Part shown: piece after piece, positions 23,968 to 64,000 of the stretch
How positions within the stretch are numbered: position 1 is the stretch's first letter
Layout of the letters: each line of letters begins with the position of its first letter
Source: Gibbula magus
Lineage: Eukaryota > Mollusca > Gastropoda > Trochida > Trochidae
Direction of reading: 5' to 3'
Assembly (NCBI GenBank): GCA_936450465.1
Contig: OW388303.1
Location: forward strand, 10,819,021-10,883,020
DNA: 64,000 nucleotides
Position numbers and translations under genes: made by a program
Notes under the pieces: model-generated
What the model saw: the letters and a program-made list of their open reading frames with translations, nothing else
Told to the model about the DNA's origin: nothing
Database searches by the model: none

Positions 23968-23985
23968 GGTGGGAGATTGCTGACC

Positions 23986-41319: not shown

Positions 41320-41329
41320 TATATATACT
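41320..41329 (+). promoter_or_regulatory. TATA box of an otherwise unseen gene
   Basis: CTATATATACTATA sits 65-73 bases upstream of a consensus splice donor, the same arrangement as in the 3-kb gene. Confidence 0.5.
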
Positions 41330-41349
41330 ATAGCACACACATCTGTATC

Positions 41350-41393
41350 TCAACATCATCTCCGAGTCACATCACAGTCCACAGAAACCTTCT
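41350..41393 (+). other. putative first exon with strong donor
   Basis: About 44 bases ending ACCTTCT|GTAAGTATAG (donor after 41393). It contains no ATG and would be 5' UTR. The presumed intron runs straight into the (AAT)n tract and the repeat array, and no downstream coding exon is seen in the window. Confidence 0.45.
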
Positions 41394-41437
41394 GTAAGTA
41401 TAGAGTTTGGTTTCTATTTTAATATTTGAATAATATT

Positions 41438-41438
41438 C

Positions 41439-41497
<59 letters not shown>
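41438..41497. repeat. (AAT)n microsatellite at the left edge of the array
   Basis: About 20 AAT units directly followed by ACTAGGACTGCC of the first module. Shorter AAT tracts occur at every later module junction. Confidence 0.97.
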
Positions 41498-41500
<3 letters not shown>

Positions 41501-43554
41501 AGGACTGCCGCGGCAGTACTTAGGTCTTCAGACTTCTGCTTGACCTTCACCTCCATGTTTGATCGAAGAATGTCACTTATACTATTCTGTCAAAACTACT
41601 GATGTTACATGTATCCCCCCTCATACCAGCAAAACTTTGAAAATTCCCAACTTATATTATTAATCAAAATATCAAGAAAACCACGTGACCTTCATATTTG
41701 CAATGATTTACTTCTTGTTTTTATTTGTACTGTGCATCTTTAAAAAAATTAAGTCTCTAGGTTGATATTTAAAATTTGCCCTTTCCAACGAATTTATCAG
41801 CTTTATGTTTTTATAGAACCAGTATACTGTCAATCTTTTACAACAAGTTGGTAATCTGTAAGTGGAATTTAGAAAATAATACTATACAATAAGACAGTCT
41901 CTAGTTCCATTTGGAAATTTTACCCTTGTTTAAAATAAAAAATTTGTTTTAAAATCTTTCACCGATGCCTGCAGTGTCCTAAGAAGAAATTACAATTTCC
42001 GCAAGCTCCTGCCAAGGTGCATGCAGCCATAAGCAGACCAAGCGTCAAAAGGAAGGAAATGTTGAATTTTAAATATTTGTAAACTACTACGAATACATCA
42101 GCATTATTTATTTGCATGAAATACTATTGTGATTCTTTTAAAACAAGTTGCATGTCTTTAAGTAGATATTTAGAAACAATACGATGACAATTACACTAAA
42201 TAGATAAGATGCCAGGTTCCCGCAACCTCTTGCCAATGAGCATGCTGCCAAAGGCATGGCCTCGAAGTGAAATGATGATAATACATTAAAATAAAGAAAT
42301 TATAAATAGTGGATGAACCATATGAGCAACGAATTCGCCCTGATTTACAATTTTGATCACAGCGATATTAGCTATCTTTAAATTAAATTACAAGTCTCTT
42401 GTTCTTTTTTTAAAATTGAAATTCGGTTAAAGAGAAGACTCTTCCACAAGCTCCTGCCAAGGTGCATGCTGCCATAAGCAAACCAGGCGTCAAAATGAAG
42501 GAAATATTGAATTTTAATTATTTGTGAACTACAACGAACATATCAGCTTTATTTATTTGCAATGAGCTTCATTTTGATTCCTTTAAAACAAGTTGCAAGT
42601 CTGAAAGTAGATATTTAGAAATAATACAATGACAATAACACTCATGAGATGAGATGCCAGTTTCCCGCAACCTCTTGCCAAGGAGCATCCAAAGGCAGGG
42701 CTTCCAAGTTAACCGATGAAAAAACATTATAATACAGAAAATGTAAATGGCGGCTAAACCATGTGAGCTACGAAGTCGTCATGATTTACAATTTTGGTCA
42801 CAACGATATAACCTATCGTTTAAATGGAGTTGCAAGTCTCTAGGTCTATTTTGAAATTTTTGCCCATGTTAAATTTTAAATTTTGAAAAATGTAATTTTT
42901 TTCAAAATTCCTACAGACCGGAAATGACTGTTCGCACGCCATTTTATTATTGATTCTTGTACACGACATATGTATCTTCCTTCCCTGAAAAAGTCATAAC
43001 GTTCCCGTCATAGGTCTTTTAGTTATATGCCCTTGAAGTTGGCCATTTTCCACTTTTTTCCGATTTCAGACAAATTTGAAAGCTCACTGTGAAAAAAGTA
43101 TAAAGATTTCGCAAATTCTGATTCGTATCGTTTTGAGTACAATGCATCAGCTACTTTGTGTGAAAGTTTCAGATCTGTAGTGCCAGAATCTTCAGAGGAG
43201 AAGATTTTTGAAGATGGGTGGGGTCAAAAACGCTGAAAATTCACTAAAAACGAAATGACGTCTAATTCATTTGACCCACGACTTCGTCATGATTTACTTT
43301 TTTGTTCCCAATCTTATTGCGCATCTTTTAGAAAAAGTTTCAAGTCTCTAGATGCATTTTGAAAAAATTTCCCATGTTAAAATTCGAATTTTCGAAGGGC
43401 CGTAACTCAGAAACCGGAACCGGAAGTCGGGATTTTTTTTCATCTGTATCAATTTCAGCCCAGAGGCTAACATCCCTGTTAATTTCATGAAAATCGGGTC
43501 ACCCGTTTTTTCAGTACAGCTGTCACAAAAATCTCGGAAATAATAATAATAATA
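41498..43554 (+). repeat. array module 1 (long type, about 2.06 kb)
   Basis: Starts ACTAGG plus the palindrome ACTGCCGCGGCAGT (41504-41517), then ACTTAGGTCTTCAGACTTCT. The body has internally repeated boxes (AAGTTGCAAGTCTCTAAGT, CCCATGTTAAAA, ACGA.TTCGTCATGATTTAC). It ends TCTCGGAAATAATAATAATA. There is no long frame. The plus orientation is assigned only because (AAT)n behaves like a 3' tail. Confidence 0.85.
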
Positions 43555-45613
43555 ACTAGGACTGCCGCGGCAGTACTTAGGTCTTCAGACTTCTGCTTGA
43601 CCTTCACCTCCATGTTTGATCGAAGAATGTCACTTATACTATTCTGTCAAAACTACTAATGTTACATGTATCCCCCCTCATACAAGCAAAACTTTGAAAA
43701 TTCCCAACTTATATATTAATCAAAATATCAAGAAAACCACGTGACCTTCATATTTGCCATGATTTACTTTTTGTTTTTATTTGTACTGTGCATCTTAAAA
43801 AAAATTAAGTCTCTAGGTTGATATTTAAAATTTGCCCTTTCCAACGAATTTATCAGCTTTATGTTTTTATAGAACCGGTATACTGTCAATCTTTTACAAC
43901 AAGTTGGTAATCTGTAAGTGGATTTAAAAAAATAATACTATACAATAAGACAGTCTCTAATTCCATTTGGAAATTTTACCCTTGTTTAAAATAAAAAATT
44001 TGTTTTAAAATCTTTCACCGATGCCTGCAGTGTCCTAAGAAGAAATTACAATTTCCGCAAGCTCCTGCCAAGGTGCATGCAGCCATAAGCAGACCAAGCG
44101 TCAAAAGGAAGGAAATGTTGAATTTTAAATATTTGTAAACTACTACGAATACATCAGCATTATTTATTTGCATGACATACTATTGTGATTCTTTTAAAAC
44201 AAGTTGCATGTCTTTAAGTAGATATTTAGAAACAATACGATGACAATTACACTAAATAGATAAGATGCCAGGTTCCCGCAACCTCTTGCCAATGAGCATG
44301 CTGCCAAAGGCATGGCCTCGAAGTGAAATGATGATAATACATTAAAATAAAGAAATTATAAATAGTGGCTGAACCATATGAGCAACGAATTCGCTCTGAT
44401 TTACAATTTTGATCTCAGCGATATTAGCTATCTTTAAATTAAATTACAAGTCTCTTGTTCTTTTTTGAAAATTGAAATTCGGTTGAAGAGAAGACTCTTC
44501 CACAAGCTCCTGCCAAGGTGCATGCTGCCATAAGCAAACCAGGCGTCAAAATGAAGGAAATATTGAATTTTAATTATTTGTGAACTACAACGAACATATC
44601 AGCTTTATTTATTTGCAATGAACTTCATTTTGATTCCTTTAAAACAAGTTGCAAGTCTGAAAGTAGATATTTAGAAATAATACAATGACAATAACACTCA
44701 TGAGATGAGATGCCAGTTTCCCGCAACCTCTTGCCAAGGAGCATCCAAAGGCAGGGCTTCCAAGTTAACCGATGAAAAAACATTATAATACAGAAAATGT
44801 AAATGGCGGCTAAACCATGTGAGCTACGAAGTCGTCATGATTTACAATTTTGGTCACAACGATATAACCTATCGTTTAAATGGAGTCGCAAGTCTCTAGG
44901 TCTATTTTGAAATTTTTGCCCATGTTAAAATTTAAATTTTGAAAAATGTCATTTTTTTCAAAATTCCTACAGACCGGAAATGACTGTTCGCACGCCATTT
45001 TATTATTGATTCTTGTACACGACATATGTATCTTACTTCCCTGAAAAAATCATAACGTTCCCGTCCTAGGTCTTTTAGTTATATGCCCTTGAAGTTGGCC
45101 ATTTTTCACTTTTTTCCGATTTCAGACAAATTTGAAAGCTCACTGTGGAAAAAGTATAAAGATTTCGCAAATTCTGATTCGTATCGTTTTGAGTACAATG
45201 CATCAGCTACTTTGTGTGAAAGTTTCAGATCTGTAGTGCCAGAATGTTCAGAGGAGAAGATTTTTTAAGATGGGTGGGGTCAAAAACGCTGAAAATTCAC
45301 TAAAAACGAAATGACGTCTAAGTCATTTGACCCACGACTTCGTCATGATTTACTTTTTTGTTCACAATCTTATTGCGCATCTTTGAGAAAAAGTTTTAAG
45401 TCTCTAGATGCATTTTGAAAAAATTTCCCATGTTAAAATTCGAATTTTCGAAGGGCCGTAACTCAGAAACCGGAACCGGAAGTCGGGATTTTTTTTCATC
45501 TGTATCAATTTCAGCCCAGAGGCTAACATCCCTGTTAATTTCATGAAAATCGGGTCGCCCGTTTTTTCAGTACAGCTGTCACAAAAATCTCGGAAATAAT
45601 AATAATAATAATA
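43555..45613 (+). repeat. array module 2 (long type, near-identical to module 1)
   Basis: Differs from module 1 by scattered single changes and 1-2-base indels, perhaps 1-2%, over 2.05 kb. The head palindrome is at 43561-43574. A 61-codon frame at 45083-45268 is repeat sequence and not a gene. Confidence 0.88.
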
Positions 45614-45660
45614 ATCAGGATAATAACAGTAGGTCTTCCAGACTTTCGTCTGAAGACCTA
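45614..45660 (+). repeat. hairpin cassette (CAGGATAATAACAG type)
   Basis: A short cassette ending in the hairpin AGGTCTTCCAGAC/GTCTGAAGACCT (45631-45659), immediately followed by the head of module 3. Confidence 0.85.
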
Positions 45661-46868
45661 ACTAGGACTGCCATGGCAGTACTGACGGTCTTCAGACTGC
45701 TGCATTGTAGCCAGAGCAATCTTTCCTTCTAGTCCACGTTTTACATAATGTTGAAGAGATCAGATATTTCCGCTAGCTCCTGACAAGGTGCATGTCGCCA
45801 AAAGCAGACCAGGCTGTAGAACGATGGAAATGTTGAAAAATAAAAATGTTACCCCTGCAAAGAATATTATAAGCTTTATTTATTTGTAGGCAAGGTCATT
45901 GTGTATCTTTTAAAACAAGTTGCATGTCTCTAAGTTGATATTTAGAAAAGATACAATGAAAATAGTGAAAAGATGCAAGGTTCCTGCAACCTCTTGCCAA
46001 GGAGCATGCCGCCAAAAGCAGACCTTCGAAGGGAAACAAAGGAAATGCGTTATACTATAGAAACCATGTGACCTACGATTTCGTCATGATTTACTTTTTT
46101 TGTCACAAGGACATAAGCTATCGTTTGAGAAAAATTGCAAGTCGCTAGTTCTATTTTGAAAATTTTGCCCATGTTAAAAATCTATTTTGTGAAAAATTAC
46201 GATTTTTCGACATTTCTACAGACCGGAAATGACTGTACGCATGCTATTTTATTATTGATTCTTGTACACGACATATGTATCTTCGATCCCTGAAAGAATC
46301 ATAAAGTTCCCGTCTTAAATGTCTGAGTAATCTGCCCTTGAAGTTTGCACTTTTGAACTTTTTTTCATTTTCAGACATTTTTGAATGGGCACTGTGAAAT
46401 AAATAGATCGATTTTGCAAAATCTGGCTCGTATCGTTTGAAGTACAATGCATCAGCTACATTCTGTAAAAGTTTCGGCTTTGTAGTACCAGTATGTTCAG
46501 AGGAGAAGATTTTTTAAGATTGGTAGTGTCGGAAAGGCTGAAAATGCACAAATATGCACTAAAATCAAAATGGCGTCTAAGCCACGTGACGTACGACTTT
46601 TTCATGATTTACTCTTTTGCTTGAAAGATGATTGTGCATCTTTTGCAAAAAGTTGTAAGTCTCTAAGTGCATTTTGAAAAAAATTCCCATGTTAAAAATC
46701 GAAAGTTAAAGGGCCTGTAGAACAAGAACGGAAGCCGGAAATGAGGATTTGTTTTCTTCTGTATCAACTTCAGCCCAGAGCCTATGATCTCTGAAAGTGT
46801 CATGGAATTGGCGTAAGTAGTTTAGGCTGTGCAGCTGCCACAAAATCGGTACAAATAATAATAATAAG
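45661..46868 (+). repeat. array module 3 (short type, about 1.2 kb)
   Basis: Head palindrome ACTGCCATGGCAGT (45667-45680), then ACTGACGGTCTTCAGACTGC. Three AAGTTGCAAGTCTCTAAG boxes lie near 45917, 46134 and 46650. It ends GGTACAAATAATAATAATAA. The CATGATTTACT box recurs within the module about 520 bp apart, so the module itself grew by duplication. Confidence 0.85.
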
Positions 46869-46966
46869 TATAATAATAAGGAAAACTCGGGTAATAACAA
46901 TAGGTCTTTCAGACTAAAGTCTGAAGACCTAATAATCAGGATAATAACAGTAGGTCTTCCAGACTT
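46869..46966 (+). repeat. two hairpin cassettes, the second cut in half
   Basis: A complete hairpin at 46902-46930 (AGGTCTTTCAGACT/AGTCTGAAGACCT). The second cassette stops after its 5' arm (46952-46966), where it is fused to the middle of a module. Confidence 0.85.
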
Positions 46967-47622
46967 TTTTCAAAATTCCTACAGACCGGAAATGACTGTT
47001 CGCACGCCATTTTATTATTGATTCTTGTACACGACATATGTATCTTCCTTCCCTGAAAAAGTCATAACGTTCCCGTCATAGGTCTTTTAGTTATATGCCC
47101 TTGAAGTTGGCCATTTTCCACTTTTTTCCGATTTCAGACAAATTTGAAAGCTCACTGTGAAAAAAGTATAAAGATTTCGCAAATTCTGATTCGTATCGTT
47201 TTGAGTACAATGCATCAGCTACTTTGTGTGAAAGTTTCAGATCTGTAGTGCCAGAATCTTCAGAGGAGAAGATTTTTGAAGATGGGTGGGGTCAAAAACG
47301 CTGAAAATTCACTAAAAACGAAATGACGTCTAATTCATTTGATCCACGACTTCGTCATGATTTACTTTTTTGTTCCCAATCTTATTGCGCATCTTTTAGA
47401 AAAAGTTTCAAGTCTCTAGATGCATTTTGAAAAAATTTCCCATGTTAAAATTCGAATTTTCGAAGGGCCGTAACTCAGAAACCGGAACCGGAAGTCGGGA
47501 TTTTTTTTCATCTGTATCAATTTCAGCCCAGAGGCTAACATCCCTGTTAATTTCATGAAAATCGGGTCACCCGTTTTTTCAGTACAGCTGTCACAAAAAT
47601 CTCGGAAATAATAATAATAATA
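46967..47622 (+). repeat. array module 4 (5'-truncated long type)
   Basis: Matches the last 650 bp of module 1 (from 42899) almost base for base and shares module-1-specific variants (CCAGAATCTTCAGAGG, GTCTAATTCATTTGA), so it derives from module 1 or a sibling. Confidence 0.85.
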
Positions 47623-47940
47623 ACTAGGACTGCCAGGGCAGTACTGACGGTCTTCAGACTGCTGCATTGTAGCCAGAGCAATCTTTCATGGCTGATCAAA
47701 AAAAATGTCACTGATACTGTTCTGTCAAAACTACCAATGTAACATGTATCTCTCATATCAACAAAACTGAAAATCCCGAAAATTCATTGTAAATAAAAAA
47801 AACTACTCAAGCAGGTGACCTTACACTTCACCATGATTAACTTGTTTGTTTGTATTACTATTGCACATCTTTTTGAAAATGTTTGAAGTGTCCATGTTGA
47901 TTTTGAATTTTTCCCCATGTTAAAAATAATTTTTCAGCCT
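47623..47940 (+). repeat. array module 5 (hybrid head, 3'-truncated)
   Basis: Head of the short type (ACTGCCAGGGCAGT, GACGGTCTTCAGACTGC) followed by the second block of the long type (AATGTCAC.GATACT.TTCTG). Similarity ends near 47940. Confidence 0.7.
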
Positions 47941-48816
47941 GCTGTACAGTTGACACAGCAACCTGTTCTTACTGTACTTAGCTCGGTGAAGGTTTTGTGA
48001 AATTGACTTCCTAGTTTTTCCGAGATAATGAGATTTCAATTTTTAACTTGTTGGACAGAAATCTCATGAAAGAAGTTGAAAATTCAAAATCGGCCGATGT
48101 CATAGACTAAGTTTGTAAACAGGCTAACGCACCTGAAAGATTCATGACATCAGCTTATTGGTTACATGTAAAGAAATATACAAAGAATTTAACTGAAAAA
48201 AGAAACCAGCACACTAATCTGGACAATGTTGCCAATATGAATTTTTTAGACGAACAAAAGCGAAAACAGAAATGAAATAAAGTTTAACATACAAAACAAA
48301 TTAAACTTAGAACATTGAAAATACAAAAAATTTCCTCATATGGATTTGAACTCAAGCTGCCGGATTTGTAGTCCAAGACGTTAACCACTACACCAGCGAA
48401 TCCTCTCATTTCAATCAGTCAATTTAGTGATAATATTTGATACATCTTTAAGACGTGCAACCACTGCTTTGTTTCGATAATATTTATGGAAATTAAAGGA
48501 ATAAATGTAACACTTGTTGCTATTTTGTCCCTAACCACTTCTTTGCTCTTGGATGAAGTATTATCTATTGATGCAATTACGTCAACATACAGTGAAAAGC
48601 AACTGTGTAGGTTATTTCAGCATGAGGTATTCAGCGTAGGAAAAAAGCTAATGCGGATTCATAATTTCAGTGAGGTGAAGAGGCCAACAGTTCCAAGGTT
48701 ATAAATGGGGGCCAAAGAGTCCCTTTTTCTGATCGCCGTTAGACAACTTTTAATACTTAATATAGAGAGACGTCGTTAGGCTCCCTGTAAAGAGAGCTTC
48801 CAGTTGTCTGTTTCGT
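47941..48816. other. non-module insert within the array, with a tRNA-like stretch
   Basis: About 880 bp without module sequence. On the minus strand, 48408-48336 has box A-like TGGTGTAGTGGTTAACGTC and box B-like AGTTCAAATCC, but the acceptor and T stems do not pair, so it is at best a tRNA relic or SINE head. A 72-codon frame at 48486-48704 has a hydrophobic start but no supporting signals. Confidence 0.4.
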
Positions 48817-49089
48817 AAAGGTTGCAAGTCTCTAAGTGCATTTTGAAGAATTTTCCCATGTTAAAAATCGAAATTTAAAGGAGCTGTAGCATAAGAACGG
48901 AAGCCGGAAGTCAGGATTTTTTGTGATATGTATCAATTTCAGACCACAGGCTATCACTCCTGAAAGTTTCATGTAATTAGCATACGTAGTTTAGACTGTG
49001 CAGGTGACACAAAATTACCGAAAATAATAATAAGGAAAATCGGATAATAACAATAGGTCTTTCAGACTAAAGTCTGAAGACCTAATAAT
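48817..49089 (+). repeat. 3' module fragment with hairpin, first copy of a 273-bp direct duplication
   Basis: Identical to 49702-49974 as far as I can compare, including the hairpin at 49055-49083. The offset is 885 bp. Confidence 0.85.
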
Positions 49090-49969
49090 GTGGGTAAACC
49101 ACTAACAATACGAAGTCATCATCGATTACTTTTTTTGTCACAATGACATAACCTATCATTTGGAACTATTTTCAAGTCTCTAGGTGCACTTTGATTAATT
49201 GACCTCATTTTAAAATTTACTTATTTAACAGAATTTCAAAATGCTGGCTAATTTGAAAATTGACAATTCTACATACTTTCTACAGACAGGAAATGACTGT
49301 TCAGGAGCGATGTTATTATTGATTCCTGTATATGACATATGTGTCTTCCTTCCCTGAAAAACTGATAAAGTTCCCTGGGTAGGCATTAGAGTTATCTGAC
49401 CTTGAAGTTTGCTTTTTTTCATATTTTCTCATTTTCAGGAAACTTTGAATGCTCACCGTGAAAAAAGTTTAAAGATTTTGCATTGTCTGATCAATATCAT
49501 TTTTAGCACAATGCATCAGCTACATCTTGTGAAAGTTTCAGCTCTGTAGTACCAGTATGTTCAGAGGAGAAGATTTTTTAAGATGGGTAGGGTCGAAAAC
49601 GTTGAAAATGCACTAAAAGCAAAATGGCGCCTAAGTCACGTGAGTTATAAGTTTTTCATGATTTACTTTTTTGCTTGGAAGATGATTGTGCATCTTTTGC
49701 AAAAGGTTGCAAGTCTCTAAGTGCATTTTGAAGAATTTTCCCATGTTAAAAATCGAAATTTAAAGGAGCTGTAGCATAAGAACGGAAGCCGGAAGTCAGG
49801 ATTTTTTGTGATATGTATCAATTTCAGACCACAGGCTATCACTCCTGAAAGTTTCATGTAATTAGCATACGTAGTTTAGACTGTGCAGGTGACACAAAAT
49901 TACCGAAAATAATAATAAGGAAAATCGGATAATAACAATAGGTCTTTCAGACTAAAGTCTGAAGACCTA
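49090..49969 (+). repeat. array module fragment (5'-truncated, diverged)
   Basis: Begins mid-module (AAACCACTAACAATACGAAG) and runs to ACAAAATTACCGAAAATAAT and a hairpin at 49940-49968. It is more diverged than its neighbours. Confidence 0.75.
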
Positions 49970-50181
49970 ATAATCAGGATAATAACAGTAGGTCTTCCAG
50001 ACTTTCGTCTGAAGACCTAATAATAATCAGGATAATAACAATAGGTCTCCCAGACTTTCGTCTGAAGACCTAATAATCAGGATAATAACAGTAGGTCTTC
50101 CAGACTTTCGTCTGAAGACCTAATAAGGAAAAAATCAGGATAAAAACAATAGGTCTTCACGACATACGTCTTGAAGACCTA
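49970..50181 (+). repeat. cluster of four hairpin cassettes
   Basis: Hairpins at 49990-50018, 50043-50071, 50093-50121 and 50151-50180. The first three have the TTTCG loop type. The last is a variant (AGGTCTTCACGAC/GTCTTGAAGACCT) that matches the variant head of module 6 directly after it. Confidence 0.88.
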
Positions 50182-51510
50182 ACTAGGATTGACGCGTCAA
50201 TACTTAGGTCTTCAAGACTTCTGCTTGACCTAGAACTCCATGTTGGACTCAGGGTTATTCGTCTGTTTCTCCGCTTTAAAATGAGCTATCAAACATATCT
50301 CTATCTTCAGTAGTTTTTTTACAAAAATTCTCCAAAGAAGGTACCCCTCTGAAAACGGAAAAATCACATATTAATGGACCCCTACATTACATTTTTCACG
50401 ATTAAGACAAAATGGTTAATATATCCATACTAAGGTGCAACATAGAAAATGCTGTGCTTTAATTTCCACTTAAGAAGATGTAATCATCATTTAGATTGCA
50501 AAGATAATTAATGCGTTATGCTGTGCTGAACATTAAAGAAAATACTCAAAAATGCTTAAATTAGGACCCCTAGACATCATTTGCGATGTTCGAGGCTTAA
50601 CTATCAACTTTTTGATGAAAGTGGTCAACATAAAAGTTGTTCTTCTCGAATTTATGCATAGGCAGGTGTATGTAAAAAAAACATTATAATACAGAAAATG
50701 TAAATGGCGGCTAAACCATGTGAGCTACGAAGTCGTCATGATTTACAATTTTGGTCACAACGATATAACCTATCGTTTAAATGGAGTTGCAAGTCTCTAG
50801 GTCTATTTTGAAATTTTTGCCCATGTTAAAATTTAAATTTTGAAAAATGTAATTTATTCAAAATTCCTACAGACCGGAAATGACTGTTCGCACGCCATTT
50901 TATTATTGATTCTTGTACACGACATATGTATCTTACTTCCCTGAAAAAATCATAACGTTCCCGTCCTAGGTCTTTTAGTTATATGCCCTTGAAGTTGGCC
51001 ATTTTTCACTTTTTTCCGATTTCAGACAAATTTGAAAGCTCACTGTGGAAAAAGTATAAAGATTTCGCAAATTCTGATTCGTATCGTTTTGAGTACAATG
51101 CATCAGCTACTTTGTGTGAAAGTTTCAGATCTGTAGTGCCAGAATGTTCAGAGGAGAAGATTTTTGAAGATGGGTGGGGTCAAAAACGCTGAAAATTCAC
51201 TAAAAACGAAATGACGTCTAAGTCATTTGACCCACGACTTCGTCATGATTTACTTTTTTGTTCACAATCTTATTGCGCATCTTTTGGAAAAAGTTTAAAG
51301 TCTCTAGATGCATTTTGAAAAAATTTCCCATGTTAAAATTCGAATTTTCGAAGGGCCGTAACTCAGAAACCGGAACCGGAAGTCGGGATTTTTTTTCATC
51401 TGTATCAACTTCAGCCCAGAGGCTAACATCCCTGTTAATTTCATGAAAATCGGGTGGCCCGTTTTTTCAGTACAGCTGTCACAAAAATCTCGGAAATAAT
51501 AATAATAATA
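50182..51510 (+). repeat. array module 6 (divergent head, chimeric body)
   Basis: The head palindrome is ATTGACGCGTCAAT (50188-50201) in place of ACTGCCGCGGCAGT, followed by AGGTCTTCAAGACTTCTGC. 50230-50665 is not shared with other modules. From about 50668 (AAAACATTATAATACAG) it continues as the 3' part of a long module, ending with GGAAATAATAATAATAATA. Confidence 0.8.
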
Positions 51511-52783
51511 ACTAGGACTGCCATGGCAGTACTGACGGTCTTCAGACTGCTGCATTGTAGCCAGAGCAATCTTTCCTTCTAGTCCACCTTTTACATAATG
51601 TTGAAGAAATCAGATATTTCCGCTAGCTCCTGACAAGGTGCATGTCGCCAAAAGCAGACCAGGCTGTAGAACGGTGGAAATGTTGAAAAATAAAAATGTT
51701 ACCCCTGCAAAGAATATTATAAGCTTTATTTATTTGTAGGCAAGGTCATTGTTTATCTTTTAAAACAAGTTGCAAGTCTCTAAGTTGATATTTAGAAAAG
51801 ATACAATGAAAATAGTGAAAAGATGCAAGGTTCCTGCAACCTCTTGCCAAGGAGCATGCCGCCAAAAGCAGACCTTCGAAGGGAAACAAAGGAAATGCGT
51901 TATACTATAGAAACCAAGTGACCTACGATTTCGTCATGATTTACTTTTTTTGTCACAAGGACATAAGCTATCGTTTGAACAAAATTGCAAGTCGCTAGTT
52001 CTATTTTGAAAATTTTGCCCATGTTAAAAATCTATTCTGTGAAAAATGACGATTTTTCGACATTTCTACAGACCGGAAATGAGTGTACGCATGCTATTTT
52101 ATTATTGATTCTTGTACACGACATATGTATCTTCGATCCCTGAAAGAATCATAAAGTTCCCGTCTTAAATGTCTGAGTAATCTGCCCTTGAAGTTTGCAC
52201 TTTGTAACTTTTTTTCATTTTCAGACATTTTTGAATGGGCACTGTGAAATAAATCGATCGATTTTGCAAAATCTGTTTCATATCGTTTTTAGTACAATGC
52301 ACCAGCTACATTATGTGAAAGTTTCAGCTCTGTAGTACCAGTATGTTCAGAGGAGAAGATTTGTTAAGATCGGTAGTGTCGGAAAGGCTGAAAATGCACA
52401 AATATGCACTAAAATCAAAATGGCGGCTTAGTCACGTGCTGTACAAGTTTTTCATGATTGACTTTTTTTCTTGATAGATGATTGTGCATCTTTTGGAACA
52501 AGTTGCAAGTCTCTAAGTACATTTGAAAAAAATTTCCCATGTTAAAAATCGAAATTTAAAGGAGCTGTAGCATACAATTGAAAGCCGGAAGTCAGATTTT
52601 TTTGTGATATGTATCAATTTCAGCCCAGAGGCTATCATGCCTGAAAGTTTCATGTAATTAGCGTAAGTAGTTTAGGCTGTACAGTGGCCACAAAATTAAC
52701 ACAAATAAAAAGTATAATAATAATAATAATAAGGAAAATCGGATAATAACAATAGGTCTTTCAGACTAAAGTCTGAAGACCTA
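51511..52783 (+). repeat. array module 7 (short type) plus one hairpin cassette
   Basis: Close copy of module 3 (same CTTCTAGTCCAC and CAGACCGGAAATGA variants). Palindrome ACTGCCATGGCAGT at 51517-51530. Hairpin at 52754-52782 directly abuts the next head. Confidence 0.85.
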
Positions 52784-54149
52784 ACTAGGACTGCCAGGGC
52801 AGTACTGACGGTCTTCAGACTGCTGCATTGTAGCTAGAGCAAACTTTCCTTCTTGTCCACGTTTTACATAATGTTGAAGAGATCAGAGCTTCCCGCTAGC
52901 TCCTGACAAGGTGCATGTCGCCAAAAGCAGACCAGGCTGTAGAACGGTGGAAATGTTGAATTATAAAATAATTACTCCTGCTACACATATTGTAAGCTTT
53001 ATTTATTTGCAGGCAAGGTTATTGTGTACCTTTTAAAACAAGTTGCAAGTTTCTAAGTGGATATTTAGAAAAGATACAATGAAAATAGTGAAAAGATGCA
53101 TTGTTCCCGCAACCGCTTGCTAAGGAGCATGCCGCCAAAAGCAGACCTTCAAAGGGAAAAAAAGGAAATGCATTATACTATAGAAACCACGTGACCTACG
53201 ATTTCGTCTTGATTTACTTTTTTTGTCACAAGGACACTAGCTATCGTTTAAACTAAGTTGCAAGTCGCTAGTTCTATTTTGAAAATTTTGCCCATGTTAA
53301 AAATTTAAATTTCGAAAAATGACAATCTTTCGACATTTCTACCAACGATAAATGACTGTACGCAAGAAATTTTATTATTGATTATTGTACATGACATATG
53401 TGGCCTCCTTCTCTGAAAAACTGATAAAGTTCGCTTGGTAAAGATTCGAATTATCTGCCCTTGAAGTTTGCGATTTTTCATATTTTCGCATTTTCAGACA
53501 AATTTCAATGGGCACTGTGCCAAAAGTATTAACATTACACATTTGCTTTTCAGTATCGTTTTTAGTTCAATGCATCCGCTACATTCTGTGAAAGTTTCAG
53601 CTTTGTAGTACCAGTATGTTCAGAGAAGAAGATTTTTTAAGATCGGTACGATCGGAAAGGCTGAGAATGCTAAAAAATGCACTAAAATCAAAATGGCGTC
53701 TAAGTCACGTGACATACGACTTTCTCATGATTTACTTTTTTGCTTAGAGGATGATTGCGCATCTTTTAGAAAAAGTTGCAAGTCTCTAAGTGCATTTTGA
53801 AAAAAAATCCCATGTTAAAATTCGAAATTTAAAGGGGCCGTAACACCAAAACCGAAGCCGGAAGTCAAGATTTTTTGTGATATGTATTAATTTCAGCGCA
53901 GAGGCTATCATTCCTGAAAGTGTCACGGAATTTGCATGAGTAGTTTAGGCTGTACAGGCGTAACAAAATCGGTCAGAAAAAGTATAATAATAATAATAAT
54001 AAGGAAAATCGGATAATAACAATAGGTCTTTCAGACTAAAGTCTGAAGACCTAATAATAATAATAAGGAAAATCGGATAATAACAATAGGTCTTTCAGAC
54101 TAAAGTCTGAAGACCTAATAATGAGGATATACAGCAGTTCTTCAAGACT
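52784..54149 (+). repeat. array module 8 (short type) plus two hairpin cassettes
   Basis: Head ACTGCCAGGGCAGT at 52790. Hairpins at 54024-54052 and 54088-54116. Confidence 0.85.
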
Positions 54150-55442
54150 ACTAGGACTGCCGCGGCAGTACTTAGGTCTTCAGTTTCCGGCTTTTGACCT
54201 TGGAGCATTGGACCTATGCTAACTACGTTTTTGGACTTTGCACTTGTCAGTAACAACTACGGGAACCGATTTGTAGCAATTTGTCCAAAAAGCGAAAAAA
54301 ACATTTTTTGGACTCCAAAATTTGTTTGGGCTCAAGCCATAATTTTTCGGTGTAACATGGTGGTAGAGACATGGCAATAGAGGAAAACGCGTTTCTGGAG
54401 TTTGTACCTCTCAATAAGAACTAAGGAAACAGTTTTGGAATTTTTTTTAACACCAGGAAAAAAAAACCGCGTTTTGCTCCGATTGGGTTCAAACCAAGAT
54501 TTTTGGGATCCTTGCGGTATTAGAAAGTTGAGAAATCCAGGTTGCGCTTTGGACTCTAAAAAAAAAAAAAAAAAAAAAAAAAAATAAAAAGACTCCCATA
54601 TATATATGGCTTTATGAAGGCTCAAGTTGTTAGTCTGCTTGTTTGTACTGAATTAATCAGCTGGTCAGCTTTAATATTAGCTATCAAACTTGATTTATCT
54701 TCAGTAGTTTCCGAGCAAAAATTCTACACAGAAAATACCCCTTCTCAAAAAGCCTGATTTTCGGCATGTGTCAGCCTTACTTGTGACCGGAAATTACTGT
54801 TCACGAGCGGTTTTATTATTGATACCTGTACATGACATATGTGTCTTCCTTTCCTGAAAAACTAATAAAGTTCGCTTGGTAAATAGTCGAATTATCTGCC
54901 CTTGAAGTTTGCGATTTTTCATATGTTCGCATTTTCAGACAACTTTCAATGGCCACTGTGACAAAAGTATTAACATTTCACATTTGCTGTTCAGTATCGT
55001 TTTTAGTTCAATGCATCAGCTGCATTCTGTGAAAGTTTCAGCTTTGTAGTACCAGTATGTTCAGAGGAGAAGATTTTTTAAGATCGGTACGATCGGAGAG
55101 GCTGAAAATGGAAAAAAATGCACTAAAATCAAAATGGCGTCTAAGTCACGTGACATACCACTTTTTCATGATTTACTTTTTTGGTAAGTAGATGATTGCG
55201 CATCTTTTAGAAAAAGTTGCAAGTCTCTAAGTGCATTTTGAAAAAAATTCCCATGTTAAAATTCGAAACTTAAAGGGGCTGTAACACAGAAACAGAAGCC
55301 GGAAGTCAGGATTTTTTGTGATATGTATAAATTTCAGACCAGAGGCTATAGTCCCTGAAAGTTTCATGGAATTTGCATGAGTAGTTTAGGCTGTACTGTT
55401 GACACAAAATTGGTACAAATAATAATAATAATAATAATAATA
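54150..55442 (+). repeat. array module 9 (third type, with internal poly(A))
   Basis: Head ACTGCCGCGGCAGT at 54156-54169. About 54180-54780 is found only here and in module 12 and includes an A-run at 54557-54583, after which the usual 3' half resumes. The 97-codon minus frame spanning the A-run (poly-Phe) is not credible as a gene. Confidence 0.85.
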
Positions 55443-56782
55443 ACTAGGACTGCCATGGCAGTACTGACGGTCTTCAGACTGCTGCATTGTAGCCTGAGCA
55501 ATCTTTCCTTCTTGTCCACGTTTTACATAATGTTGAAGATATCAGAGATTTCCGCTAGCTCCTGACAAGGTGCATGTCGCCAAAAGCAGACCAGGCTGTA
55601 GAACGATGGAAATGTTGAATTATAAAATTTTTACCAATGCTACGAATATCATAAGCTTTATTTATTTGCAGGCAAGGTTATTGTGAATCTTTTAAAACAA
55701 GTTGCAAGTCTCTAAGTGGATATTTAAAAAAGATACAATGAAAATAGTGAAAAGATGCAAGGTTCCCGCAACCTCTTGCCAAGGAGCATGCCGCCAAAAG
55801 CAGACCTTTGAAGGGAAACATAGGAAATGCATTATAATATAGAAACCACGTGACCTACGATTTCGTCTTGATTTACTTTTTTTGTCAGAAGGACATTAGC
55901 TATCGTTTAAACTAAGTTGCAAGTCGCTAGTTCTATTTTGAAAATTTTGCCCATGTTAAAAATATAAATTTCGAAAAATGACAATTTTTCGACATTTCTA
56001 CAGACCGTAAATGACTGTACGCAAGAAATATTATTATTGATTTCTGTACATGACATATGTGTCCTCCTTCCCTGAAAAACTGATAAAGTTTGCTTGTTAA
56101 GTATTCGAATTATCTGCCCTTGAAGTTTGCGATTTTTCATATATTCGTATTTTCAGACAAATTTCAATGGGCAGAGTGACACAAGTATTAATATTACACA
56201 TTTGCTTTTCAGTATCGTTTTTAGATCAATGCATCAGCTACATGCTGTGAAAGTTTCAGCTTTATAGTACCAGTATGTTCAGAGGAGAAGATTTTTTAAG
56301 ATTGGTACTATCGGAGAGGCTGAAAATGCTTAAAAATGCACTAAAATCACAATGGCGTCTAAGTCACGTGACATACGACTTTCTCATGATTTACTTTTTT
56401 GCTCAGAGGATGATTGCGCATCTTTTAGAAAAAGTTGCAAGTCTCTGAGTGCATTTTGAAAAAAAATCCCATGTTAAAATTCGAAATTTAAAGCGGCTGT
56501 AGCACAAAAAGAGAAGCCGGAAGTCAGGATTTTTTGTGATATGTATAGATTTCAGCCCAGAGGCTATCATCCCTGAAAGTTTCATGGAATTTGCATAAGT
56601 AGTTTAGGCTGTACCTTTGACACAAAATTGGTACAAATAATAATAAAAAGTATAAGGAAAATCGGATAATAACAATAGGTCTTTCAGACTAAAGTCTGAA
56701 GACCTAATAATAATAAAAAGAAGTATAATAAGGAAAATCGGATAATAACAATAGGTCTTTCAGACTAAAGTCTGAAGACCTA
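55443..56782 (+). repeat. array module 10 (short type) plus two hairpin cassettes
   Basis: Head ACTGCCATGGCAGT at 55449-55462. Hairpins at 56677-56705 and 56753-56781. Nearest relative is module 14 (shared GTAGCCTGAGCAATC, GAAGATATCAGAGATTTCC). Confidence 0.85.
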
Positions 56783-58123
56783 ACTAGGACTGCCAGGGCA
56801 GTACTGACGGTCTTCAGACTGCTGCATTGTAGCCATAGCAATCTTTCCTTCTTGTCCACGCGATCAGAGCTTTCCACTGGCTCCTGATAAGGTGCATGTC
56901 GCCAAAAGCAGACCAGGCTGTAGAACGATGGAAATGTTGAATTATAAGTTTTTTTTACCCCTGCTACGAATATTAAAAGCTTTATTCATTTACAGGCAAG
57001 GTTATTGTGCATCTTTTAAAACAAGTTGCAAGTCTCTAAGTGGATATTTAGAAAAGATACAATGAAAATAGTGAAAAGATGCAAGGTTCCCGCAACCTCT
57101 TGCTAAGGAGCATGCCGCCAAAAGCAGACCTTCGAAGGGAAACAAAGGAAATGCGTTATACTATAGAAACCATGTGACCTACGATTTCGTCTTGATTTAC
57201 TTTTTGTGTCACAAGGACATTAGCTATCGTTTAAACGAAGTTGCAAGTCTCTAGTTCTATTTTGAAAATTTTGTCCATGTTAAAAATTTAAATTTCGAAA
57301 AATGACCATTTTTCGACATTTCTACAGACCATAAATGACTGTACGCAAGAAATGTTATTATTGATTATTGTACATGACATATGTGTCCTCCTTCCCTACA
57401 AAACTGATAATGTTCGCTTTTTAAATATTCGAATTATCTGCCCTTGAAGTTTGCGATTTTTCATATTTTCGCATTTTCAGACAAATTTCAATGGGCACTG
57501 TGAGAAAAGTATTAACATTAAACATTTGCTTTTCAGTATCATTTTTAGTTCAATGCATCCGCTACATTCTGTGAAAGTTTCAGCTATGTAGTACCAGTAT
57601 GTTCAGAGGAGAAGATTTTTTAAGATTGGTACTATCGGAGAGGCTGAAAATGCTTAAAAATGCACTAAAATCACAATGGCGTCTAAGTCACGTGACATAC
57701 GACTTTCTCATGATTTACTTTATTGCTCAAAGGATGATTGCGCATCTTTTAGAAAAAGTTGCAAGTCTCTGAGTGCATTATGAAAAAAATTCCCATGTTA
57801 AAATTCGAAATTTAAAGGGGCTGTTGCACTAAAACAGAAGCCGCAAGTCAGGATTTTTTGTGATATGTATAGATTTCAGCCCAGAAGCTATCATCCCTGA
57901 AAGTTTCATGGAATTTGCATAAGTAGTTTAGGCTGTACCTTTGACACAAAATTGGTACAAATAATAATAATAAAAAGTATAATAAGGAAAATCGGATAAT
58001 AACAATAGGTCTTTCAGACTAAAGTCTGAAGACCTAATAAGGAAAATCGGATAATAACAATAGGTCTTTCAGACTAAAGTCTGAAGACCTAATAATGAGG
58101 ATATACAGCAGTTCTTCAAGACT
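56783..58123 (+). repeat. array module 11 (short type) plus two hairpin cassettes
   Basis: Head ACTGCCAGGGCAGT. It lacks about 20 bp of the TTTTACATAATGTTGAAG block, as does module 15. Hairpins at 58007-58035 and 58062-58090. Confidence 0.85.
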
Positions 58124-59410
58124 ACTAGGACTGCCGCGGCAGTACTTAGGTCTTCAGTTTCCGGCTTTTGACCTTGGAGCATTGGACCTATGCTAACTAC
58201 GTTTTTGGACTTTGCACTTGTCAGTAACAACTACGGGAACCGATTTGTAGCAATTTGTCCAAAAAGCGAAAAAAACATTTTTTGGACTCCAAAATTTGTT
58301 TGGGCTCAAGCCATAATTTTTCGGTGTAACATGGTGGTAGAGACATGGCAATAGAGGAAAACGCGTTTCTGGAGTTTGTACCTCTCAATAAGAACTAAGG
58401 AAACAGTTTTGGAATTTTTTTTAACACCAGGAAAAAAAAAACGCGTTTTGCTCCGATTGGGTTCAAACCAAGATTTTTGGGATCCTTGCGGTATTAGAAA
58501 GTTGAGAAATCCAGGTTGCGCTTTGGACTCTAAAAAAAAAAAAAAAAAAAAAAAAAAGAAGTAAAAAGACTCCCATATATATATGGCTTTATGAAGGCTC
58601 AAGTTGTTAGTCTGCTTGTTTGTACTGAATTAATCAGCTGGTCAGCTTTAATATTAGCTATCAAACTTGATTTATCTTCAGTAGTTTCCGAGCAAAAATT
58701 CTACACAGAAAATACCCCTTCTCAAAAAGCCTGATTTTCGGCATGTGTCAGCCTTACTTGTGACCGGAAATTACTGTTCACGAGCGGTTTTATTATTGAT
58801 ACCTGTACATGACATATGTGTCTTCCTTTCCTGAAAAACTAATAAAGTTCGCTTGGTAAATAGTCGAATTATCTGCCCTTGAAGTTTGCGATTTTTCATA
58901 TGTTCGCATTTTCAGACAACTTTCAATGGCCACTGTGACAAAAGTATTAACATTTCACATTTGCTGTTCAGTATCGTTTTTAGTTCAATGCATCAGCTGC
59001 ATTCTGTGAAAGTTTCAGCTTTGTAGTACCAGTATGTTCAGAGGAGAAGATTTTTTAAGATCGGTACGATCGGAGAGGCTGAAAATGGAAAAAAATGCAC
59101 TAAAATCAAAATGGCGTCTAAGTCACGTGACATACCACTTTTTCATGATTTACTTTTTTGGTAAGTAGATGATTGCGCATCTTTTAGAAAAAGTTGCAAG
59201 TCTCTAAGTGCATTTTGAAAAAAATTCCCATGTTAAAATTCGAAACTTAAAGGGGCTGTAACACAGAAACAGAAGCCGGAAGTCAGGATTTTTTGTGATA
59301 TGTATAAATTTCAGACCAGAGGCTATAGTCCCTGAAAGTTTCATGGAATTTGCATGAGTAGTTTAGGCTGTACTGTTGACACAAAATTGGTACAAATAAT
59401 AATAATAATA
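58124..59410 (+). repeat. array module 12 (near-identical copy of module 9)
   Basis: Matches 54150-55442 with differences only in A-run and AAT-tract length and isolated bases. Head palindrome at 58130-58143. The matching 3.97-kb offset shows that a multi-module block was duplicated. Confidence 0.88.
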
Positions 59411-60868
59411 ACTAGGACTGCCAGGTCAGTACTGACGGTCTTCAGACTGCTGCATTGTAGCCAGAGCAATATTTCCTCCTTGTCCACGTTCTACATAATG
59501 TTGAAGAGATCAGAGCTTTCCGCTAGCTCCTGACAAGGTGCATGTCGCCAAAAGCAGACCAGACTGTAGAACGATGGAAATGTTGAATTGTACAAATTTT
59601 ATCCCTGCAACGAATACTATAAGCATTAAGCAGGCAAGGTTATTGTGCATCTTTGAAAACAAGTTGCAAGTCTGTAAGTGGATATTTAAAAAAGATACAA
59701 TGAAAATAGTGAAAAGATGCAAGTTTCCTGCAACCTCTTGCTAAGGAGCATGCCGCCAAAAGCAGACCTTCAAAGGGAAACAAAGGAAATGCGTTATACT
59801 ATAGAAACCATGTGACCTACGATTTCGTCTTGATTTACTTTTTTTGTCACAAGGACATTAGCTATCGTTTAAACTAAGTTGCAAGTCTCTAGTTGTATTT
59901 TGAAAATTTAGCCCATGTTAAAATTTTAAATTGTGAAAAATGACGATTTTACGACATTTCTACAGACAAAGAATGACTGTACGCAAGCACTTTTATTACT
60001 GATACCTGTACATGGCATATGTGTCCTCCTGACCTGAAAAACTGATAAAGTTCCCTTGGTAGGTATTCGAGTTATCTGACCTTGAAGTTTGCGATGTTTC
60101 ATGTTTTTCAATTTTCGGACAAATTTGAATGGGCACTGTCCAAAAAGTAAAAACAAATCGCAATTTCTGTTTCGATACATTTTCAGTACAATGCATCAGC
60201 TACGTTCTGTGAAAGTTTCAGCTCTGTAGTACCAGTATGTTCAGAGAAGAAGATTTTTTAAGATCGGCAGTGTCGGAAAGGCTGAAAATGCCAAAAAATG
60301 CACTAAAATCCAAATGGCGTCTAAATTAAGTGACGTACGACTTTTTCATGATTTACTTTTTTGCTTGGAAGATGATTATGCATCTTTTGCAAAAAGTTGC
60401 AAGCCTCTAAGTGCATTTTGAAAAAAATTGCCATGTTAAAAATCGAAATTTAAAGGGCCTGTAGCACAATAAAGGAAGCCGGAAGTCAGGATTTTTTGTG
60501 ATATGTATCAATTTCAGACCAAAGGCTATTACCCCTGAAAGTTTCATGTAATAAGCATGCGTAGTTTAGACTGCACAGTTGACACAAAATTACCGAAAAT
60601 AATAATAATAATAATAAGGAAAATCGGATAATAACAATAGGTCTTTCAGACTAAAGTCTGAAGACCTAATAAGGAAAATCGGATAATAACAATAGGTCTT
60701 TCAGACTAAAGTCTGAAGACCTAATAATAATAATAAGGAAAATCGGGTAATAACAATAGGTCTTTCAGACTAAAGTCTGAAGACCTAATAATAAAAAAAA
60801 GTATAATAAGGAAAATCGGATAATAACAATAGGTCTTTCAGACTAAAGTCTGAAAGTCTGAAGACCTA
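59411..60868 (+). repeat. array module 13 (short type) plus four hairpin cassettes
   Basis: Head ACTGCCAGGTCAGT (one unpaired change). Hairpins at 60639-60667, 60694-60722, 60758-60786 and 60831-60867. The last has a duplicated 3' arm word (TGAAAGTCTGAAGACCT). Confidence 0.85.
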
Positions 60869-62755
60869 ACTAGGACTGCCATGGCAGTACTGACGGTCTT
60901 CAGACTGCTGCATTGTAGCCTGAGCAATCTTTCCTTCTTGTCCACGTTTTACATAATGTTGAAGATATCAGAGATTTCCGCTAGCTCCTGACAAGGTGCA
61001 TGTCGCCAAAAGCAGACCAGGCTGTAGAACGATGAAAATTTTGAATTATACAAATTTTACCAATGCTACGAATATCATAAGCTTTATTTATTTGCAGGCA
61101 AGGTTATTGTGAATCTTTTAAAACAAGTTGCAAGTCTCTAAGTGGATATTTAAAAAAGATACAATGAAAATAGTGAAAAGATGCAAGGTTCCCGCAACCT
61201 CTTGCCAAGGAGCATGCCGCCAAAAGCAGACCTTTGAAGGGAAACATAGGAAATGCATTATAATAAAGAAACCACGTGACCTACGATTTCGTCTTGATTT
61301 ACTTTTTTTGTCAGAAGGACATTAGCTATCGTTTAAACTAAGTTGCAAGTCGCTAGTTCTATTTTGAAAATTTTGCCCATGTTAAAAATATAAATTTCGA
61401 AAAATGACAATTTTACGACATTTCAACAGACCGTTAATGACTGTACGCAAGAATTTTTTTTATTTATTTCTGTACATGACATATGTGTCCTCCTTCCCTG
61501 AAAAACTGATAAAGTTTGCTTGTTAAGTATTCGAATAATCTGCCCTTGAAGTTTGCGATTTTTCATATATTCGTATTTTCAGACAACTTTCAATGGGCAG
61601 AATGACACAAGTATTAATATTACACATTTGCTTTTCAGTATCGTTTTTAGATCAATGCATCAGCTACATGCTGTGAAAGTTTCAGCTTTATAGTACCAGT
61701 AAGTTCAGAGGAGAAGATTTTTTAAGATTGGTACTACCGGAGAGGCTGAAAATGCTTAAAAATGCACTAAAATCACAATGGCGTCTAAGTCACGTGACAT
61801 ACGACTTTCTCATGATTTACTTTATTGCTCAAAGGATACAATGAAAATAGTGAAAAGATGCAAGGTTCCCGCAACCTCTTGCCAAGGAGCATGCCGCCAA
61901 AAGCAGACCTTTGAAGGGAAACATAGGAAATGCATTATAATAAAGAAACCACGTGACCTACGATTTCGTCTTGATTTACTTTTTTTGTCAGAAGGACATT
62001 AGCTATCGTTTAAACTAAGTTGCAAGTCGCTAGTTCTATTTTGAAAATTTTGCCCATGTTAAAAATATAAATTTCGAAAAATGACAATTTTACGACATTT
62101 CAACAGACCGTAAATGACTGTACGCAAGAATTTTTTTTATTTATTTCTGTACATGACATATGTGTCCTCCTTCCCTGAAAAACTGATAAAGTTTGCTTGT
62201 TAAGTATTCGAATAATCTGCCCTTGAAGTTTGCGATTTTTCATATATTCGTATTTTCAGACAACTTTCAATGGGCAGAATGACACAAGTATTAATATTAC
62301 ACATTTGCTTTTCAGTATCGTTTTTAGATCAATGCATCAGCTACATGCTGTGAAAGTTTCAGCTTTATAGTACCAGTAAGTTCAGAGGAGAAGATTTTTT
62401 AAGATTGGTACTACCGGAGAGGCTGAAAATGCTTAAAAATGCACTAAAATCACAATGGCGTCTAAGTCACGTGACATACGACTTTCTCATGATTTACTTT
62501 ATTGCTCAAAGGATGATTGCGCATCTTTTAGAAAAAGTTGCAAGTCTCTGAGTGCATTATGAAAAAAATTCCCATGTTAAAAATTCGAAATTTAAAGGGG
62601 CTGTTGCACTAAAACAGAAGCCGCAAGTCAGGATTTTTTGTGATATGTATAGATTTCAGCCCAGAAGCTATCATCCCTGAAAGTTTCATGGAATTTGTAT
62701 AAGTAGTTTAGGCTGTACCTTTGACACAAAATTGGTACAAATAATAATAATAATA
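60869..62755 (+). repeat. array module 14 (short type with internal 675-bp duplication)
   Basis: Head ACTGCCATGGCAGT at 60875-60888. The stretch from ATACAATGAAAATAGTG (61160) to CTTTATTGCTCAAAGGAT (61836) is repeated directly from 61837, giving an about 1.89-kb module. Confidence 0.85.
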
Positions 62756-63930
62756 ACTAGGACTGCCAGGGCAGTACTGACGGTCTTCAGACTGCTGCAT
62801 TGTAGCCAGAGCAATCTTTCCTTCTTGTCCACGCGATCAGAGCTTTCCACTAGCTCCTGATAAGGTGCATGTCGCCAAAAGCAGACCAGGCTGTAGGACT
62901 ATGGAAATGTTGAATTATAATTGTTTTACCCCTGCTACGAATATTATAAGCTTTATTCATTTACAGGCAAGGTTATTGTCCATCTTTTAAAACAAGTTGC
63001 AAGTCTCTAAATGGATATTTAGAAAAGATACAATGAAAATAGTGAAAAGATGCAAGGTTCCCGCAACCTCTTGCTAAGGAGCATGCCGCCAAAATCAGAC
63101 CTTCGAATGGAAAAAAAGGAAATGCATTATACTATAGAAACCACGTGACCTACGATTTCGTCTTGATTTACTTTTTTTGTCACAAGGACATTAGCTATCG
63201 TTTAAACTAAGTTGCAAGTCGCTAGTTCTATTTTGAAAATTTTGCCCATGTTAAAAATATAAATTTCGAAAAATGACAATTTTACGACATTTCGACAGAC
63301 CGTAAATTACTGTACGCAAGAAATTTTATTATTGATTTCTGTACATGACATATGTGTCCTCCTTCCCTGAAAAACTGATAAAGTTTGCTTGTTAAGTATT
63401 CGAATAATCTGCCCTTGAAGTTTGCGATTTTTCATATATTCGTATTTTCAGACAACTTTCAATGGGCAGAATGACACAAGTATTAATATTACACATTTGC
63501 TTTTCAGTATCGTTTTTAGATCAATGCATCAGCTACATGCTGTGAAAGTTTCAGCTTTATAGTACCAGTAAGTTCAGAGGAGAAGATTTTTTAAGATTGG
63601 TACTATCGGAGAGGCTGAAAATGCTTAAAAATGCACTAAAATCACAATGGCGTCTAAGTCACGTGACATACGACTTTCTCATCATTTACTTTATTGCTCA
63701 AAGGATGATTGCGCATCTTTTAGAAAAAGTTGCAAGTCTCTGAGTGCATTATGAAAAAAATTCCCATGTTAAAATTCGAAATTTAAAGGGGCTGTTGCAC
63801 TAAAACAGAAGCCGCAAGTCAGGATTTTTTGTGATATGTATAGATTTCAGCCCAGAAGCTATCATCCCTGAAAGTTTCATGGAATTTGCATAAGTAGTTT
63901 AGGCTGTACCTTTGACACAAAATTGGTACA

Positions 63931-63960
<30 letters not shown>
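62756..63960 (+). repeat. array module 15 (short type)
   Basis: Head ACTGCCAGGGCAGT. Close to module 11 (CCACGCGATCAGAGCTTTCC). Ends in (AAT)n at 63930-63955. Confidence 0.85.
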
Positions 63961-63962
<2 letters not shown>

Positions 63963-64000
63963 GTATAATAAGGAAAATCGGATAATAACAATAGGTCTTT
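63961..64000 (+). repeat. hairpin cassette cut by the window end
   Basis: AAGTATAATAAGGAAAATCG (and onward) followed by AGGTCTTT at the last base, so the array continues beyond the window. Confidence 0.85.

Follow-up and report, generated by a model that had tools for sequence, protein, structure and literature searches.

A same-orientation array in the top shell Gibbula magus as a probable nested stack of non-autonomous Helentrons at their own (ATT)n microsatellite

The closest described systems are the HINEs (non-autonomous Helentrons), whose published layout places a 5' subterminal inverted repeat (subTIR), an inverted repeat (IR) and a microsatellite on one side of the element and a 3' subTIR and palindrome on the other, with a preference for TT and no clear target duplication (PMC7492417; PMC4067079; statements on published elements refer throughout to the accessible portions of the papers cited). 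Microsatellite insertion as such is not new, since a title cited in PMC4067079 concerns (GAAA)n microsatellites of Lepidoptera that are disrupted by a Helitron-like family. Here we describe an array of modular units in a 64,000-nucleotide stretch of chromosome 15 of the turban top shell Gibbula magus (G000:C15:10819021-10883020, hereafter the window; assembly of 1.47 Gb in 140 contigs). A note made from the letters of this stretch (the original prediction) had proposed a non-autonomous element with an (AAT)n end, or a family mobilised in trans, that builds strings of itself. The array is very probably a minus-strand stack of non-autonomous Helentrons that grows by nested self-insertion at their own (ATT)n. 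Support for placing the units in the HINE/Helentron class is strong, and the nested self-insertion model is well supported.

The modular array is real, comprising 14 heads (CTAGG plus a palindrome) at 41499-62757, all 14 on the plus strand as read, and no stop-to-stop frame of at least 120 aa is listed in 41498-64000. Three body types had been described; the head/body types found are A (heads at 41499 and 43556), B (most heads), D (54151 and 58125) and a single C head (50183). Complete hairpin right arms number 19 in 41000-64000, plus one hairpin cut by the window edge, and Rfam gives no match near a gathering score in the same interval. As had been foreseen, the right edge lies beyond the window, in L029, one of 27 further genome stretches (L009-L035) that were mostly picked for containing a close A head rather than as a random sample. 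The array ends at L029:3998, equivalent to window position ~67,998, giving a total length of ~26.5 kb because the last hairpin arm sits at L029:3985-3996 and is followed by sequence outside the family.

The reading strand of the array units is minus, and on it each unit is laid out as a HINE: TT, AGGTCTTCA(A)GAC-loop-complement (a hairpin), a short block, (ATT)n, body, GTCT(T)GAAGACC, palindrome, CCTAG and T. What had been called a hairpin cassette is the 5' subTIR with its inverted repeat, and the head is the 3' subTIR, palindrome and CTAG end. Ends that had seemed not to fit cleanly do so when read on this strand. About 20 interleaved cassettes had been counted and are present, but many are the other termini of the same elements and not wholly separate entities, though hairpins outnumber heads. 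The 5' ends read TTAGGTCTTCA(A)GAC-loop-complement and the 3' ends GTCT(T)GAAGACC..ACTGCCNNGGCAGTCCTAG, or the covarying ATTGAC/GTCAAT or ATTGCC/GGCAAT. The subTIRs of the two ends are complementary (AGGTCTTCA(A)GAC at the 5' end, GTCT(T)GAAGACC at the 3' end), and the additional letter of C-type subTIRs occurs at both element ends. The IR complementary to the 5' subTIR is present as the 5' hairpin, with a single-stranded DNA folding z of ~-5.5 for the two variants folded, and (ATT)n lies directly inside it. Across the 121 heads, 5 bp separate the palindrome from the CTAG end; the palindrome carries a mismatch in a few cases and has compensatory variants (ACTGCC/GGCAGT, ATTGCC/GGCAAT, ATTGAC/GTCAAT), while its folding energy alone is weak (z -0.3 and -2.9). 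Diverged repeats occur within the A body (423 bp at 83%, 140-bp modules at 74%).

After CTAG the 3' flank starts with T in 121/121 cases (TT in 115), and TT precedes AGGTC at the 5' flank in 130 of 131. Both edges are AA/TT-identical, which could mask a 2-bp target duplication; by eye, the uninterrupted A microsatellite of L033 has 17 nt, equal to 14 + 3 in the interrupted form. Solitary A copies in L019 and L033 extend from CTAGG to hairpin-TAA (2098 and 2166 bp), that is, from one terminus to the other. At outer edges, (AAT)n is found on the head side in the window, L011, L012, L014, L017, L026 and L033 (not in L019 or L024), and on the hairpin side TAA is followed almost immediately by outside sequence in L013, L019, L022, L024, L029 and L033. 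The (AAT)n is therefore not a tail, and the view that it forms the unit end was not borne out, (AAT)n being internal or flanking. A further hairpin variant (AAGGATTCAGC...GCTGAATCCTT) is present at L010:8405, L022:8333, L024:6521 (reverse) and L034:3528; no head with matching arms was noticed for it in the fetched stretches, where no dedicated search was made, and it may represent the 5' ends of another family or orphan cassettes. In L017, a 73-bp self-complementary stretch (~4783-4855, 95.9%) stands immediately left of the (AAT)n flank.

If new copies go into the (AAT)n of older ones, heads and hairpins are expected to act as type-matched brackets. The bracket test left out untyped hairpins and closing hairpins whose opening head was not within the stretch; D heads were counted as B beforehand and one truncated window start as an A head. 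Innermost head-hairpin pairs were type-matched in 58 of 61 cases, compared with shuffle means of 20.7 globally and 37.7 within locus (0/2000 shuffles as high in each), and enclosing pairs in 15 of 22, with means of 7.0 globally (2/2000 as high) and 10.9 within locus (46/2000). Balanced strings include A(A(B(b)a)a) in L010, C(A(B(b)a)c) in L013 and C(C(C(A(a)c)c)c) in L025. The guest stands after 14 nt of host microsatellite, counted from the head side, in 34 of 41 recognised hosts (two with variant sequence). The earlier suggestion that (AAT)n is a preferred target is supported. In A hosts with A, B or C guests the distance is exactly 14 nt of (AAT)n in 21/21; in minus-strand terms the insertion point falls close to the 5' border of the (ATT)n run, as it does at outer sites. 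The array thus looks mainly like a nested stack, some loci having also been enlarged by tandem duplication. Strings of the element do exist as predicted, but largely as nested stacks rather than head-to-tail chains.

The features of the array are as follows.

41430-41498, no strand assigned: (AAT)n microsatellite at the array's left outer edge; in minus-strand view, the (ATT)n that flanks the outermost insertion on its 3' side
41499-43555, minus: outermost A-type HINE, with 3' terminus (CTAG, palindrome, 3' subTIR) at 41499-41535, then body
~43538-43555, minus: internal (ATT)n of the outermost A-type HINE, broken by nested insertions
43556-45661, minus: complete A-type HINE of 2106 bp inside the first A element, 5' hairpin at its right end
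45662-46932, minus: complete B-type HINE, 5' hairpin arm 46919-46930
46933-47623, minus: chimera in which an a-type hairpin's left arm (as printed on the plus strand) passes at ~46965 into part of an A body; (AAT)n end before the next head
47624-49085, minus: B-headed element with partly different body, hairpin arm 49072-49083
49923-50182, minus: five hairpins in a row (b, a, a-variant, a, c), either 5' ends that close earlier hosts, or orphan cassettes of the 5' end, or both
50183-51511, minus: C-type 3' terminus, then (as printed) part of an A-like body; first 157 bp align to the Helentron 3' end at L027:8428 with 82% identity
51512-52784, minus: complete B-type HINE, hairpin arm 52771-52782
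52785-54054, minus: complete B-type HINE, hairpin arm 54041-54052
54151-55443, minus: D-type body whose 3' terminus has a shortened arm; it hosts the next B element
55444-56707, minus: B-type HINE, hairpin arm 56694-56705
56784-58037, minus: B-type HINE, hairpin arm 58024-58035
58125-59411, minus: second D-type body, 99.5% identical to 54151-55443
59412-60669, minus: B-type HINE, hairpin arm 60656-60667, with three further hairpins up to 60869
60870-62756, minus: B-headed element with a 684-bp internal direct repeat; (AAT)n end before the next head
62757-64000, minus: B-type HINE cut by the window edge, hairpin starting near 63991; the array continues to L029:3998

Judged from its type and the outer flanks, the outermost A 3' terminus (41499) would pair with the A-type 5' hairpin that ends the array (L029:3985-3998); a simple stack parser instead paired 41499 with another a-hairpin, at 50007. 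The fusion of a hairpin arm to the interior of an A body at ~46965 resembles a template switch or a deletion at the hairpin loop.

The same organisation recurs across the genome. Searching the 1.47-Gb assembly for the head, as had been proposed, returned 1,781 exact 38-base C heads (891 + 890), 211 exact 38-base A heads (108 + 103) and 735 matches to a 35-place B-head pattern (236 forward, 499 reverse). Chance origin of the heads is excluded, the reversed-pattern control giving 0 each time. The B-head strand imbalance presumably stems from a few giant arrays. The window and L009-L035 together hold 121 heads, none of which, in the window or in any of the 27 stretches, runs against its stretch's own direction, and among the first 100 listed places of each head type 165 of 166 neighbouring heads within 10 kb are on the same strand. 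Intact A copies on different chromosomes are 97.8-99.9% identical, from which we conclude that family activity is recent. At G000:C1:76862867-76889062 there are 20 C heads on one strand, many ~1 kb apart, probably a tandemly duplicated array. Viral contigs gave 0 matches to the head and hairpin patterns, as did a genome-contig collection to the head pattern.

The units of the window carry no genes, and no frame of at least 130 aa looking like a transposition gene was seen by eye in the first 20 loci; one frame piece in the L013 flank resembles a LINE endonuclease. Helentron genes with the same 3' ends are nevertheless present in the genome, in support of the earlier suggestion of a non-autonomous family mobilised in trans. 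Helitron_like_N (PF14214) has 151 genome matches, many in open frames of 1,800-2,900 aa. At C2:90.88 Mb (L036) there are three adjacent frames whose strand is opposite to that of the heads. The first of them to be named has Helitron_like_N (here Rep) and the next has PIF1 (PF05970) and Exo_endo_phos (PF03372), together the domain combination of a Helentron; the frames of this copy are broken into pieces. The third frame, beside the Rep frame (8097-8744, 216 aa), matches Herpes_teg_N (E 9.5e-10), which we take to be a protease-type domain. Downstream of the L036 frames, past an ~83 bp minisatellite, is the B head L035:4756. The C head L027:8428 is likewise set apart, by a related minisatellite, from sequence whose translation gives the same endonuclease C-terminus (GDFNDNIRTSSS...).

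In five cases, two of them from fetched sequence rather than from head lists, CTAG lies downstream of Rep on the expected strand, at 6585 bp for A, 6969, 7484 and 7484 bp for B and 7046 bp for C. Both 7484-bp cases have open frames of 2313 aa and lie among one-strand B heads. These heads (G000:C2:90106528-90230076) extend across at least 123 kb without a change of orientation, and two long Helentron frames are embedded among them. The last 167 bp of the C partner (L027:8428) match the window C element at 82%, and the B partner shares 63 bp with a B unit at 89%. Of 40 scored head places, 10 lay within 70 kb of one of 150 Rep places, where uniform placement predicts 0.57; all 10 heads are on the strand opposite to Rep, and 7 distinct Reps are involved. 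Within 200 kb the count is 11 of 40, 10 of them on the opposite strand.

Our account of the array builds on the two kinds of terminus and the match between their types, on the T flanks, and on the presence of the same 3' ends downstream of genes for Rep, helicase and endonuclease. Helentron proteins would nick, replicate and insert the elements via a rolling-circle (HUH) route. The 5' border of an (ATT)n run would be the preferred point of entry for new copies; as each copy has such a run near its own 5' end, every copy would be a preferred target for the next, in one fixed orientation because (AAT)n is not symmetrical. Stacks would grow through nested self-insertion, with tandem duplication enlarging some of them later. 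The wider proposal, a Helentron lineage with its own landing pad that forms bracket-like stacks of more than 100 kb into which autonomous elements insert too, we regard as evenly poised between right and wrong.

Several observations weigh against this account. Seven of the 22 enclosing pairs are mismatched, three of them in the window array, including that of C head 50183. Hairpins slightly exceed heads overall (132 vs 122), and in the whole array of the window and L029 they number 25 against 17 heads plus one truncated start. The hairpin-side edge of L019 carries two AAT repeats and a second short AATAATAAT ~9 nt further. Constant insertion points could come partly from composite copies spreading as units, and shared descent of such copies inflates the match and position counts by an unknown amount. 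On the side of the gene-bearing partners, Exo_endo_phos barely passes its cut-off in L036 (24.7 vs 24.5 bits). Among the listed exact heads, the nearest is within 9 kb downstream for 3 of 87 Rep places on C1-C9 (none on the Rep's own strand), and on C1, where the three head lists are complete, for 0 of 8. With so few Reps having an exact head downstream, the families to which most Helitron-type genes of this genome belong have different or diverged ends. The main gap in the case for a Helentron partner is its 5' end: going upstream from the L036 frames as far as L037 extends, no 5' hairpin was found, nor was one in L038.

The hairpin excess in the window array would also suit a different origin, in which the units are Helentron-derived and the arrays are mainly head-to-tail multimers made by rolling-circle read-through (missed termination) or unequal crossing-over. 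Tandem arrays of bat and silkworm Helitrons have been attributed to terminator bypass (PMC4067079), and the arrays of Gibbula include a 2162-bp period in L030 (copies 99.8-100% identical, two of them identical), an ~761 bp repeat unit in L020 and the C heads ~1 kb apart at C1:76.86-76.89 Mb. The period in L030 tells us, as a further point against nesting alone, that tandem duplication builds arrays too. Read-through of one template, however, would not give mixed A, B and C types in one array, nor would it be expected to yield type-matched enclosing pairs or balanced strings four deep, or to put different guest types at the same host position, and we consider read-through or crossing-over improbable as the main source of the arrays.

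Two readings that place the units outside the Helentrons fare far worse. SINE- or LINE-like retroposons with an (AAT)n tail, inserted into (AAT)n microsatellites by target-primed reverse transcription, would account for the (AAT)n before many heads (56 of 121 preceded by AATAATAA) and for common body parts with differing remainders. At the six outer edges (L013, L019, L022, L024, L029 and L033), though, the supposed tail side is hairpin plus TAA with little or no (AAT)n, which runs on the other side, and the termini are constant at both ends, with the same 3' ends beside Rep-helicase genes. A target-primed retroposon with (AAT)n at its 3' boundary was rejected on these six edges, and the retroposon reading as a whole is very unlikely. 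Slightly less credible again is a eukaryotic integron-like cassette array, in which site-specific recombination at the palindromic head would join circles to one another. The cassettes are non-coding and share one orientation, and their junctions have structured, covarying palindromes, which would agree with it; the nested matching of types, the simple copies that lie outside arrays and have nothing but T flanks, and the Helentron genes having the same 3' ends do not.

Around the array, inspection by eye suggests an intronic position. To the left (41320-41399 of the window) a TATA-like stretch is accompanied by a short leader and by GTAAGT as donor; to the right (L029 ~4080-4110) CTCTCAG resembles an acceptor and is accompanied by a coding exon, the small protein of which looks secreted. 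Sequence similar to these gene flanks occurs on the minus strand at 23750-23974, 30902-31193 and 36589-36893. Introns of the neighbouring paralogous genes have diverged too far to be used as an empty site, and none of the loci fetched for this comparison provided a paralogous one. Elsewhere in the window, 18994-23253 contains two frames of 714 aa in opposite orientation, overlapping at 21109-21138 and with the same RVT_1 and GIY-YIG matches, which appear to be a pair of Penelope-like elements in inverted-repeat arrangement.

Why HINEs so regularly carry a microsatellite seems an open question, to which an insertion site for their own copies would be a concrete and testable answer. Long same-orientation arrays resembling tandem repeats can, moreover, arise by ordered insertion, the order being readable from the bracket structure. 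A literature search that did not cover subscription papers or Repbase found, in the accessible portions of its sources, no description of this family in Gibbula and no nested self-insertion into a HINE's own microsatellite; a Replitron lead had no match in the search.

Among known systems, canonical Helitrons (e.g. Helraiser, PMC5876387) resemble the units in the 3' palindrome followed by CTAG and in belonging to the rolling-circle family, but the units have no 5' TC, possess subTIRs, and are flanked by T on both sides instead of lying at A^T. Canonical Helitron identity (5' TC, A^T target) was rejected, the 5' ends being (TT)AGGTC or (TT)AAGGATTC with T on both sides. The (TA)n-associated MuTAnT elements (PMC4486113) share the preference for a microsatellite target; they are Mutator-like, with another class of transposase. 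Autonomous Helentrons (Rep-helicase-endonuclease) have the same 3' ends in this genome, whereas the window units are without genes. The earlier lead towards Helentron- or pearl-type elements was right, given the published HINE layout and the gene-bearing Helentrons with the same 3' ends, although its placement among those of bivalves does not hold for a gastropod host. Cg_HINE of Crassostrea gigas and DINE-1-like HINEs are like the units in the 5' subTIR with complementary IR, the left-module microsatellite, the repeat-bearing core, the 3' subTIR followed by a palindrome, the T-rich target and the lack of coding capacity, and may be like them in having no clear target duplication (PMC7492417; PMC4067079). 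Distances at the 3' end differ from those given for mite HINEs, with ~24 bp from 3' subTIR to end and the palindrome 5 bp from the terminus here, vs 38-60 and 8-35 bp there. Unlike Cg_HINE and the DINE-1-like elements, the Gibbula units belong to a gastropod, and their (ATT)n microsatellite is the main insertion site, giving deep nested stacks. The class of element is known; the trait that seems unusual is that a copy brings with it the site at which the next copy prefers to land.

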